DNA of 64,000 nucleotides, from NCBI GenBank assembly GCA_016788295.1, contig JAEUSY010000005.1:1-64000 (forward strand). The letters run 5' to 3'. Each line of letters starts with the position of its first letter. Positions within the stretch are counted from its first letter, which is position 1. The stretch comes from Flavobacteriales bacterium (GTDB lineage: Bacteria > Bacteroidota > Bacteroidia > Flavobacteriales_F > PHOS-HE28). The notes under the pieces are model-generated. The model was given only the letters and a program-made list of their open reading frames with translations. It was not told the origin of the DNA and searched no databases. A program made the translations under genes and the position numbers. Positions 16,364 through 24,644 of this stretch are shown here, piece by piece.

Positions 16364-16642
16364 ATGGGCTTGAACAAAGCTGAATTGATCGAGGCGATCG
16401 CCGCTGATGCGAAGATCTCGAAGGCTGATGCGAAGCGTGCTCTGGACGCTTTCGTGACCAGCACCACCAAGGCGCTGAAGAAAGGTGAGCGCGTTGCCCT
16501 CGTTGGCTTCGGCACCTTCTCCATCACCAAGCGCGCTGCCCGCAAAGGCCGTAACCCCCAGACCGGCAAAGAGATCAAGATCGCTGCCAAGAAGGTGGTG
16601 AAGTTCAAAGCTGGCGCCGACCTGCAGAACAAAGTGAAGTAA
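16364..16642 (+). CDS. HU-family DNA-binding protein
   Basis: A 92-residue nucleoid protein. It has the N-terminal helices ([28 protein letters not shown]), the saddle ([14 protein letters not shown]) and the DNA-gripping beta arm with the family core [14 protein letters not shown], followed by [18 protein letters not shown] dimers bend and compact DNA. A consensus promoter lies upstream and a strong rho-independent terminator downstream, so it is an independent, probably abundant transcript. Two other genes nearby (17535 and 22010) carry histone-like Lys/Ala tails. Confidence 0.95.
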
Positions 16643-17498: not shown

Positions 17499-17534
17499 CA
17501 GTACTTTGTAGACCAAACGCAAACATTGCAGACC

Positions 17535-17756
17535 ATGGGAAAAGGAGACATCAAGACCAAGAAGGGCAAGCGTCGCGCCGGCAGCACCGGTAAGAGCCGT
17601 CCTTCCAAGCGCAGCTCCATCGTAGCCGCGAAGAAGGCCGCTGGCACCGCCGCTCCGAAGAAGGCCGCGAAGAAGGCAGCTCCGAAGAAAGCCGCTGCCA
17701 AGAAGGCCGCTGCTCCGAAGAAGGCCGCCGCCAAAAAGGCCGCCGATAAGAAGTAA
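17535..17756 (+). CDS. 30S ribosomal protein bTHX with Lys/Ala-rich C-terminal tail
   Basis: A 73-residue basic protein. Residues 1-25 (MGKGDIKTKKGKRRAGSTGK followed by SRPSK) match bTHX, the small protein buried at the top of the 30S head in Thermus and found across Bacteroidota. The usual protein ends soon after this core. Here about 45 extra residues of AAKKAA and PKKAA repeats follow, resembling histone H1 tails. The start at 17535 is set by the bTHX N-terminus; an in-frame ATG 54 bases upstream adds unrelated residues. A rho-independent terminator follows. The tail may bind rRNA or DNA non-specifically (inference). Confidence 0.85.
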   Translation: MGKGDIKTKKGKRRAGSTGKSRPSKRSSIVAAKKAAGTAAPKKAAKKAAPKKAAAKKAAAPKKAAAKKAADKK

Positions 17757-21923: not shown

Positions 21924-21950
21924 CAGTTGTTCAGGATCAGGGAACAAGGC

Positions 21951-21980
21951 TTGCACAGGCAGGGCTTTTGGCTACCTTGG
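21951..21980 (+). promoter_or_regulatory. Promoter for the START-like histone-tail protein
   Basis: TTG at 21951-21953, exactly 19 bases, then TACCTTGG at 21973-21980, one mismatch to TAnnTTTG. The ATG at 22010 is 30 bases downstream, which supports that start over the in-frame ATG at 21968. Confidence 0.65.
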
Positions 21981-22009
21981 CGCTCAACCGTACCCATCGA
22001 ATTAGGACC

Positions 22010-23149
22010 ATGGCCAAGAAGACCGTAAAGAAAGCAGGCAAGGCAGCCCCCGGAAAGGCAAAGAAGACCAGCCCCGCACGTGCCGCAAAGGCTCCGGCCA
22101 AGTCCACAGCCCGCAAGCCTGCTGGCAAGGCTGCCAAGCCAAAGACCAGTGTAGCCAGCAAAAAGTCAACTGCGGCCAAGAAGACGGGTAACAAAACCAA
22201 AGCTGGCACGAGCCCCAAGAAGACCCTGAAAAAGGCCGCCGTGAAACGCGTGCCGGCGAAGAAAACCGTAGCCCGGAAACCTGCTGGCAAGAAGGCGGCT
22301 CCCAAAAGGCCAACAACGAAAAAGGCCAGCAGTACCGCAGTCAAAACGAAGAAAGTGGCCGCCAAGAAGGTGGTGGCCAAGAAAGCTGCAGTGAAAAAGG
22401 TTGCCGTGAAAAAGGCGGTGGCTAAGAAGGTGGCCTCGAAGAAAGTGGCTGCCAAGAAGGTAGTGAAGGTCGTGCTTAAGAAGGCGGTGCCCAAGAAGAC
22501 GGCTAAGCCCGTGGCGATACCCAAGCCCTTCAACAAGAAGGCCGAACCTGTGAAGGTTGTTGCCAAGACCGCCAAGCCAGTTGAGGCAAAGCCTACCACG
22601 AAGCCCATTAAGCCAAAAGCCGCGGCGCCACTTGCGAAGGTGGTAGCGCCAGTTGAGAAAAGCGCCCCTGCACAGCCGGCCCCGAAAACTGCACCTGTTG
22701 CAGCATCGAAGCCCTCGCAAGCGGTCACCAACCCACCCGTGGCCAGCAAACCCACCGCCGATCGCGGACCGCGTAAAGAACGGGTGGTGATGGAATTCGA
22801 TGTACACAGCTCGCCGATCGTCCTGTACGAATTGATCAGTACGCCGAGCGGTTTCGCGGAATGGTACTGCACCGACGTACACGTCCGTGGCGACCAGTGG
22901 ACCTTTGTTTGGCCCGAGGAGCAGGAAGAGACCACCATGATCGGCCGGCGGCTGGGCGAGGTGATCCGCTTCCACCGCAACGATGATGACGACGATGCCA
23001 CCTTCTTCGAGTTCCGCATCCGCATCGATGCCATGACGAATGAGGTCGCCTTGATCGTCACCGACCATGGAATGCCGCACGAAGTGGACGCCATAAGGAA
23101 CCTTTGGAGCTCGCAGATCGCCAATTTGGTAAGGGTTCTGGGCGCTTGA
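22010..23149 (+). CDS. START-like (AHSA1-type) protein with long histone H1-like N-terminus
   Basis: A 379-residue protein in two parts. Residues 1-250 are almost only Lys, Ala, Pro, Val, Thr in KKVAAKK, KKAVAKK and PAKK repeats, like histone H1 or bacterial Hc1-type tails, with a Pro-rich linker (about 195-250). Residues 255-379 form a START-like domain: ERVVMEFDVHSSPIVLYELI, GFAEWYCTDVHVRGDQWTFVW, FFEFRIRIDAMTNEVALIVTD, LWSSQIANLVRVLG. In Bacteroidota a stand-alone START-like protein of about 125 residues is common, so this looks like that protein fused to a DNA-binding tail. It may hold a hydrophobic ligand or partner near the nucleoid (inference). It is followed 34 bases later by the LptF/G gene. 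Confidence 0.88.
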   Translation: MAKKTVKKAGKAAPGKAKKTSPARAAKAPAKSTARKPAGKAAKPKTSVASKKSTAAKKTGNKTKAGTSPKKTLKKAAVKRVPAKKTVARKPAGKKAAPKRPTTKKASSTAVKTKKVAAKKVVAKKAAVKKVAVKKAVAKKVASKKVAAKKVVKVVLKKAVPKKTAKPVAIPKPFNKKAEPVKVVAKTAKPVEAKPTTKPIKPKAAAPLAKVVAPVEKSAPAQPAPKTAPVAASKPSQAVTNPPVASKPTADRGPRKERVVMEFDVHSSPIVLYELISTPSGFAEWYCTDVHVRGDQWTFVWPEEQEETTMIGRRLGEVIRFHRNDDDDDATFFEFRIRIDAMTNEVALIVTDHGMPHEVDAIRNLWSSQIANLVRVLGA

Positions 23150-23183: not shown

Positions 23184-24644
23184 ATGATCAGTATGAAACG
23201 ACTTCACCGCATGATCATCAGGGCCTTTCTCGGGCCCTTGGCGCTCACGTTCCTTATCGTGCTGTTCATCCTTGTGATGCAGTTCCTGTGGAAGTACGTT
23301 GACGATCTGATGGGCAAAGGCCTCGAGTGGTACGTACTGCTGGAACTGCTCGCTTATGCAACGGCCAGCTTTGTGCCCCTTGCGCTGCCCCTTGCAGTGC
23401 TGCTGAGCAGCATTATGACCATGGGTGGCCTGGGCGAGAACTCCGAACTGGTGCCCATGCGTTCGGCCGGACTTGGCCTCTTCCGGATACTGGGGCCCTT
23501 GGCCGTGTTCGTGGCGTTGCTTTCAGCAGCCTCCCTGGTGTTCAGCAATAACATGCTCCCTGTGGCCAACCTTAAATTCAGGTCATTGCTGTGGGACATC
23601 ACCGAAAAGAAACCCGCACTGAACCTTCGGCCCGGAGCCTTTTACAACGGGATCGATGGGTTCAGCATTCGTGTGATGGACAAGGACGAAGAGACCGGCG
23701 TGCTCAGTGACGTATTGATCTACGACCATCGCGCCGCCTTCCAAGGCAACCGAACGGTGATAAGGGCCAAGAGCGGGACCATGCAACGCAGCACCAACGG
23801 CCAGTATCTGGTGCTGAACTTGAAGGACGGGCATTTCTACGACGAACACAGCGTGGCCGGTGGAAACAAAGGCAGTGCACCCATGATGCGCGGAACCTTT
23901 GCTGAAGATGAAGTACGCTTGGACCTTTCGGGCCTTGGTCTGCGCCGGACCGACGAAGACCTGTTCAAGGACCATTACAAGATGTTGACCATGGCACAAT
24001 TGGACCATGGCGAGGACAGCCTGCTGACCCACATGGCCGAACGGGCACAGGAACACCGCAAACAACTGGATGGCAGTCTGTACCTGTTGCGGGGAACCAG
24101 CTTCCGCAGCGGCCCACAACCCATTGTGACAGGTATGGACAGCAGCGCAATTCAGCCCAGCGAAGAGGCTTGGAACAGCATGTATGATGTGGCCATGAAC
24201 ATGGCGCGCAACCAAGTGAACCACCTCCAGCAGCAGATCGACGAGCGCAAGGGCCGTGCGGAACAGCTCTCCCGCTACCGGATCGAATGGCACCGAAAGC
24301 CCATGCTGGCGGCGGCCTGCCTGCTCTTTTTCTTCATTGGTGCGCCACTGGGGGCCATTATCCGCAAAGGAGGCATGGGGCTGCCAACAGTGTTCGCCAT
24401 CATTTTTTTCCTGGTCTTCCACATCGTGAGCTTCAGCATGGAGAAGCTGGCCATCGCTGGCGGCATACAGCCCTGGCTGGGCATGTGGCTGGCATCCTTG
24501 GTACTGTTGCCCATCGGCCTGTTCCTCACCTGGAAGGCGGCGACCGACAGCCCCCTCTTCGATGGCGATGTGTATTATCGCGGCTGGCAGCGGTTCCGGT
24601 CCCTGTTCAAGCGAAACGATGCGCATCCTTCAGCTGTGCAATAA
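23184..24644 (+). CDS. LptF/LptG-family permease
   Basis: A 486-residue YjgP/YjgQ-type inner-membrane protein of the LPS export transporter. It has three N-terminal spans (LALTFLIVLFILVMQFLW; VLLELLAYATASFVPLALPLAVLL; LAVFVALLSAASLVFSNN), a large periplasmic jellyroll-like region at about 140-370, and three C-terminal spans (LAAACLLFFFIGAPLGAII; TVFAIIFFLVFHIVSF; WLASLVLLPIGLFL). LptFG and LptB2 move LPS from the inner membrane to the bridge. LptB and the other partner are not in the window. Its last 26 bases overlap the first glycosyltransferase gene, so envelope export and sugar transfer are co-expressed. Confidence 0.9.
   Translation: MISMKRLHRMIIRAFLGPLALTFLIVLFILVMQFLWKYVDDLMGKGLEWYVLLELLAYATASFVPLALPLAVLLSSIMTMGGLGENSELVPMRSAGLGLFRILGPLAVFVALLSAASLVFSNNMLPVANLKFRSLLWDITEKKPALNLRPGAFYNGIDGFSIRVMDKDEETGVLSDVLIYDHRAAFQGNRTVIRAKSGTMQRSTNGQYLVLNLKDGHFYDEHSVAGGNKGSAPMMRGTFAEDEVRLDLSGLGLRRTDEDLFKDHYKMLTMAQLDHGEDSLLTHMAERAQEHRKQLDGSLYLLRGTSFRSGPQPIVTGMDSSAIQPSEEAWNSMYDVAMNMARNQVNHLQQQIDERKGRAEQLSRYRIEWHRKPMLAAACLLFFFIGAPLGAIIRKGGMGLPTVFAIIFFLVFHIVSFSMEKLAIAGGIQPWLGMWLASLVLLPIGLFLTWKAATDSPLFDGDVYYRGWQRFRSLFKRNDAHPSAVQ

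Follow-up and report, generated by a model that had tools for sequence, protein, structure and literature searches.

A START_2 protein with a long N-terminal histone H1-like arm in a Flavobacteriales bacterium and its relatives, a plausible nucleoid tether

The usual START_2 protein of Bacteroidia is about 125 to 145 residues long and has no arm. A gene in the window (the whole 64,000-nucleotide stretch of Flavobacteriales DNA that was analyzed) encodes a START_2 domain preceded by a lysine-rich, histone H1-like region twice its length, which raises the questions of whether the two parts truly form one protein, whether the combination is maintained in relatives, and what the basic region might do for the domain that it precedes.

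The gene, its promoter, and its two parts

The gene is an open reading frame of 379 amino acids with an ATG start, running exactly from 22010 to 23149 on the plus strand and beginning with ATGGCCAAGAAG. The sequence-only reading had described it as a START-like domain fused to an H1-like tail of about 250 residues. Both components are there, with a Pfam START_2 match (PF19569) of 93.2 bits and a basic region at residues 1-253, but the designation "tail" has to be given up, since the gene begins with the long basic region, which is an arm at the N terminus.

A Bacteroidota-type promoter, TTG-N19-TACCTTGG, lies at 21951-21980 (+), from 59 to 30 bases 5' of the ATG, and is conserved across the genus. 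When a relaxed form of it (TTG-N17..21-TA[CT][CT]TT) was sought within 110 bases upstream of each orthologue, it was present in 38 of 42 genus loci compared with 0.3% of shuffled upstream sequences; one of the 4 misses is a contig end and another is a misplaced start. The promoter proposed earlier, a TTG element with a 19-base spacer, is confirmed in this way. Because it sits upstream of a gene that starts with the arm, the arm belongs to the transcript, and the reading frame is supported by the MAK-type start common to the genus orthologues. Promoter position and genus-wide start together rule out that the arm is either a spurious upstream extension or a C-terminal tail, and expression of the arm and the START_2 domain as one protein is supported. 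The long antisense reading frame at 21937-23124 (-) is a mirror image of the low-complexity coding strand; we did not count it as a gene.

The START_2 domain, assigned from Pfam, PDB, and AlphaFold2 results, comprises residues 254-379 and, with the stop codon, positions 22769-23149 (+). The Pfam match covers residues 256-379 and profile positions 4-126 of 126, far above the cutoff of 23.6 bits, and the only PDB relative by sequence is 2lio (E = 7.5e-18). An AlphaFold2 prediction from an input alignment of 70 sequences had pLDDT values mostly of 94-98 across the domain, while residues 1-240 scored 44-56 and had no secondary structure. The predicted domain matched 2lio in Foldseek (E = 2.6e-10) and aligned in VIA-align with 3q63 over 121 residues (rmsd 2.6; Z = 16.4) and with Aha1 (2m89; Z = 16.2). 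Within the superfamily it also resembles the folds of Aha1/AHSA1-like proteins, polyketide cyclases, and plant hormone receptors. We are confident from this model that the domain adopts the helix-grip fold of START_2, which may fit an Aha1-like co-chaperone role as well as it fits lipid binding; the literature searched yielded neither a function paper on START_2 nor ligand data for the family.

The H1-like arm (residues 1-253; 22010-22768 [+]) was delimited by its composition, its predicted disorder, and a sub-threshold HC2 match. It consists of 28% K, 23% A, 11% P, and 12% V, with 2% acidic residues and nearly no aromatics (F, W, Y, and C together make up 0.3%). Tandem Repeats Finder located a degenerate 15-base repeat at 22347-22461 (+), corresponding to the five-residue unit KKxxx (period 15, 7.5 copies, 68% matches), and the pentad spacing is strongly enriched across the genus, with 112 occurrences of KKxxxKK in 42 arms versus 26 in shuffles. 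Against the same kind of shuffles, the genus arms had no enrichment of SPKK motifs and no clear enrichment of AT-hook-like motifs (11 versus 6.3). Lysine-rich pentamer repeats such as these are a mark of the HC2 family (PF07382), and the arm falls short of the cutoffs both for HC2 in Pfam (20.6 bits versus 40) and for the Burkholderia-type H1-like family NF038053 in NCBIfam (16.7 bits versus 80); these sub-threshold matches mirror composition, not descent. Profile and protein searches found no further copies of the arm in the same genome. A nucleotide pattern search of that genome did reveal a stand-alone H1-like mini-protein of 61 residues, of the MAKKAAPKKATKKAAPKK (KKAAP) type (L177, at ~53.3 kb on the minus strand of contig C14 of G000).

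The gene directly downstream, at 23184-24644 (+), encodes an LptF/LptG permease (PF03739, 246 bits) and is a probable operon partner. It starts 34 bases 3' of the START_2 gene, is the next gene in every genus locus whose contig reaches that far, and is also next in 12 armless loci outside the genus. Five armed loci outside the genus (L054, L056, L059, L062, and L065) are followed instead by genes for an ArnT/PMT_2-like glycosyltransferase or a PAP2 protein. Upstream, a tRNA-Met gene lies on the opposite strand. An HU-like protein without a basic extension, recognized by eye, is encoded 5.4 kb upstream at 16364-16642 (+), and a Thx-like small ribosomal protein at 17517-17756 (+), whose Pfam Thx match is below the cutoff, has a Lys/Ala-rich C-terminal extension (KKAAPKKAAAKKAAAP...) with a KKAAAKKAAAP tail.

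Distribution and turnover of the arm

The gene was found in 44 of 45 genus genomes, the single miss being a genome that is 76% complete, and every one of the 44 carries the basic arm, in most cases with a MAK start and in two cases clipped by a contig end. This rules out chance or artefact as the source of the fusion. Flavobacteriales bacterium UBA2426 is a close relative. Complete genus arms are about 120 to 290 residues long and have a median net charge of +53, alongside an acidic domain (-11). Of 296 Bacteroidia genomes sampled, 252 have START_2 as such, nearly always in single copy, and in a phylum-wide sample all 37 START_2 matches fell in Bacteroidia, with none seen in the other sampled classes.

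Loci from 50 Bacteroidia families divide into 14 families with an arm (f1, f4, f6, f7, f15, f18, f20, f27, f28, f36, f40, f43, f44, and f70) and 36 without, and two of the armed families, f27 and f28, contain both forms. The fusion had been put forward as unusual; being genus-wide and recurring in 14 of 50 sampled families, it is a recurrent feature of START_2 and no oddity. Tailless relatives, which the sequence-only reading had named as evidence that would refute it, occur outside the genus in those 36 families, whereas none occurs among the 44 within it. Because the orthologue is armless in 36 of 50 sampled families, any tethering by the arm would be dispensable for the core function of the protein. 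The START-domain tree requires eight changes of arm state, but an AU test (p = 0.50) did not reject a tree in which the armed proteins all form one clade, and we therefore make no claim of multiple arm origins.

Two local variants of the arm were also seen. In one subclade of the genus (L023-L035), a conserved non-basic motif, PIQAVMMGVEP...GPARxLKR, stands right before the START domain and contains a conserved internal Met, often paired. This motif, which is absent from the lineage of the window, may serve for binding or may provide an internal start that yields an armless form. The arms of family f20 (L062, L095, L100, and L102) have a conserved GGRKPK piece that is followed by an acidic-hydrophobic stretch, DDEPxI..D..IEQLI.S, and then by the domain.

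Domain and arm differ greatly in how fast they change. In close pairs the domains are 98 to 99% identical (dN of 0.003 to 0.010), while the arms are 59 to 70% identical with 23 to 59 gap columns; for the pair L027/L029, a domain that is 98% identical (dN = 0.007, dS = 0.33) accompanies an arm with 59% identity and 23 gap columns. Pairs from eight other families mostly had the same contrast between a frozen domain and a fast arm. Throughout this turnover the genus arms retain K, A, P, and V, with a mean of 1.4% acidic residues and a net charge of +0.27 per residue, whereas a neutral codon simulation that started from the arm in the window and drifted to 50-75% identity arrived at 4 to 6% acidic residues and a charge of +0.14 to +0.21 per residue, values that come from one ancestor and one mutation bias and serve as a guide, not a formal test. 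Maintenance of the arm composition by selection is supported, and turnover with constant charge is the pattern expected of a region for which charge and disorder are important but the exact sequence is not. The instability that the sequence-only reading had named as a second refutation, compared here between species, applies to the sequence and length of the arm, which change fast, and not to its presence and charge, which are kept. The arm is thereby a clear example from nature of a disordered region whose charge persists during sequence turnover. We rejected the idea that it compensates the charge of the domain, because the acidity of START_2 domains is the same with and without an arm.

Candidate targets of the arm

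The proposal that the arm is a tether builds on what is observed, namely, the domain, the predicted disorder, the composition, the promoter, the genus-wide presence, and the charge retention. From these features and from analogous proteins, we infer a nucleic acid as the probable target, DNA in preference to RNA, and tethering as the likely purpose. The protein would be a two-part cytoplasmic one, in which a C-terminal acidic START_2 domain of 126 residues follows an N-terminal disordered polycation of about 253 residues of the histone H1, Hc2, or AlgP type. The arm would bind DNA without sequence preference, via many weak contacts between lysines and phosphates, and the tethered domain with its cargo (a ligand, client, or partner) would be held on the nucleoid instead of being free in the cytosol. 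Judging by composition and analogues, we put the chance that the arm is a polycationic tether placing the helix-grip START_2 domain on DNA at about even; RNA or polyphosphate is possibly the target. Points against a DNA tether are the sub-threshold H1-like matches, the lack of SPKK and of clear AT-hook enrichment, the armless orthologues, and the operon partner, an inner-membrane LPS permease that would suit a membrane role as well. The suggestion that such an arm ties the domain to the nucleoid thus is plausible as far as DNA goes, while its description as a sensor is unsupported. We think it quite improbable that START_2 is a domain for sensing or presenting a small ligand and that this core protein was brought to the chromosome independently in several Bacteroidia lineages by the growth of an H1-like arm. 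If the ligand-sensing reading were true, the protein would respond to a ligand on the nucleoid and would have no counterpart among known nucleoid-associated proteins. The presence of the arm in 14 families is a clue to the place where START_2 acts and makes its role directly approachable.

Among the alternatives, one is that the target of the arm is RNA or the ribosome, with START_2 held near ribosomes engaged in translation or within an RNA-rich condensate. A polycation cannot discriminate DNA from RNA, and the Thx-like protein described above is a case of a Lys/Ala-rich extension on a probable ribosomal protein in the same genome. Nonetheless, we consider this alternative unlikely: the proteins of H1-like composition for which there are data (AlgP, PhaF, and Hc2) are described as DNA binders, and the conserved neighbor is LptF/LptG, with no ribosome-related conserved neighbor found.

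A further alternative takes AlgP as its model, as that protein associates with granules of polyphosphate, whose spacing requires its H1-like domain (PMC9239181). The arm of START_2 would then bind polyphosphate or be lysine-polyphosphorylated, and PPK1 is indeed encoded in the genome of the window, as it is in 37 of the 44 genomes of the genus. Three genomes that are 99 to 100% complete (G002, G018, and G029), however, keep a full arm and have no match to PPK1, the polyphosphate kinase that the search covered. These armed genomes weaken polyphosphate as a sole target, the other half of the original tether suggestion, and make this alternative decidedly unlikely. A version involving PHA granules is unlikely as well, because the genome of the window has no PhaC_N match.

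Equally doubtful is a polybasic membrane anchor that docks a lipid-handling START_2 on anionic inner-membrane lipids beside the LPS export permease. START folds often bind lipids, LptF/LptG is directly 3' in the genus and in the 12 armless loci outside it, and armed loci outside the genus often continue with the envelope genes mentioned above, ArnT/PMT_2-like or PAP2. Yet the adjacency to LptF fails to explain the arm, because the armless form shares it, and typical polybasic membrane anchors contain aromatic residues, of which the arm has hardly any. Finally, the rapid turnover and indels would suit a low-complexity expansion that has no target and is tolerated as soluble, perhaps masking or solubilizing a domain whose acidity with or without the arm makes an intramolecular charge partner conceivable, but this is very improbable given that the charge and the acidic scarcity exceed the simulated neutral expectation and that arm loss was not seen in any genus species.

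Comparison with known systems

Sequence and predicted fold both place the C-terminal domain fully within START_2, the family of BfR322 of Bacteroides fragilis (2LIO), and the protein differs from the BfR322 type, which has no arm, in its preceding basic arm. For a DNA tether built on such an arm, the nearest parallels include AlgP and PhaF, in which an H1-like arm binds DNA and organizes granules (PMC9239181, PMC3574117; reviewed in PMC13052382). In AlgP of Pseudomonas aeruginosa, too, a small domain carries a long H1-like arm rich in K, P, and A, which is reported to bind DNA (PMC9239181), but this arm is C-terminal and made of KPAA repeats, the other domain is predicted to be helical and not START-like, and nothing points to common descent. 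PhaF of Pseudomonas putida joins a binding domain to a disordered H1-like DNA-binding arm and so tethers granules to the nucleoid (PMC3574117); its binding domain is a PHA-binding phasin helix, whereas the genome studied here is the one without a PhaC_N match. The partner of the arm is thus START_2, not a phasin-type or AlgP-type domain.

Hc2 (HctB) of Chlamydia, a DNA-binding protein of lysine-rich pentamers and variable length, and the Bordetella-type H1-like proteins share with the arm both the pentamers and the variation in length (PMC2848022), but Hc2/HctB has no START domain, and the HC2 match here is the sub-threshold one given above. A further close parallel is the N-terminal basic tail of FrzCD of Myxococcus xanthus, which is variable in sequence, always positive, and binds the nucleoid without sequence preference, fixing a signaling domain there (PMC5716589). 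The arm has the same conserved charge and variable sequence, although the basic peptide of FrzCD is only about 30 residues long and FrzCD is a chemoreceptor. The combination of START_2 with an H1-like arm appears to be undescribed in the literature searched, which lay mostly outside subscription journals. Since H1-like arms on bacterial proteins are already known from PhaF, AlgP, and FrzCD, what is new here is the combination of domains and not the kind of system.
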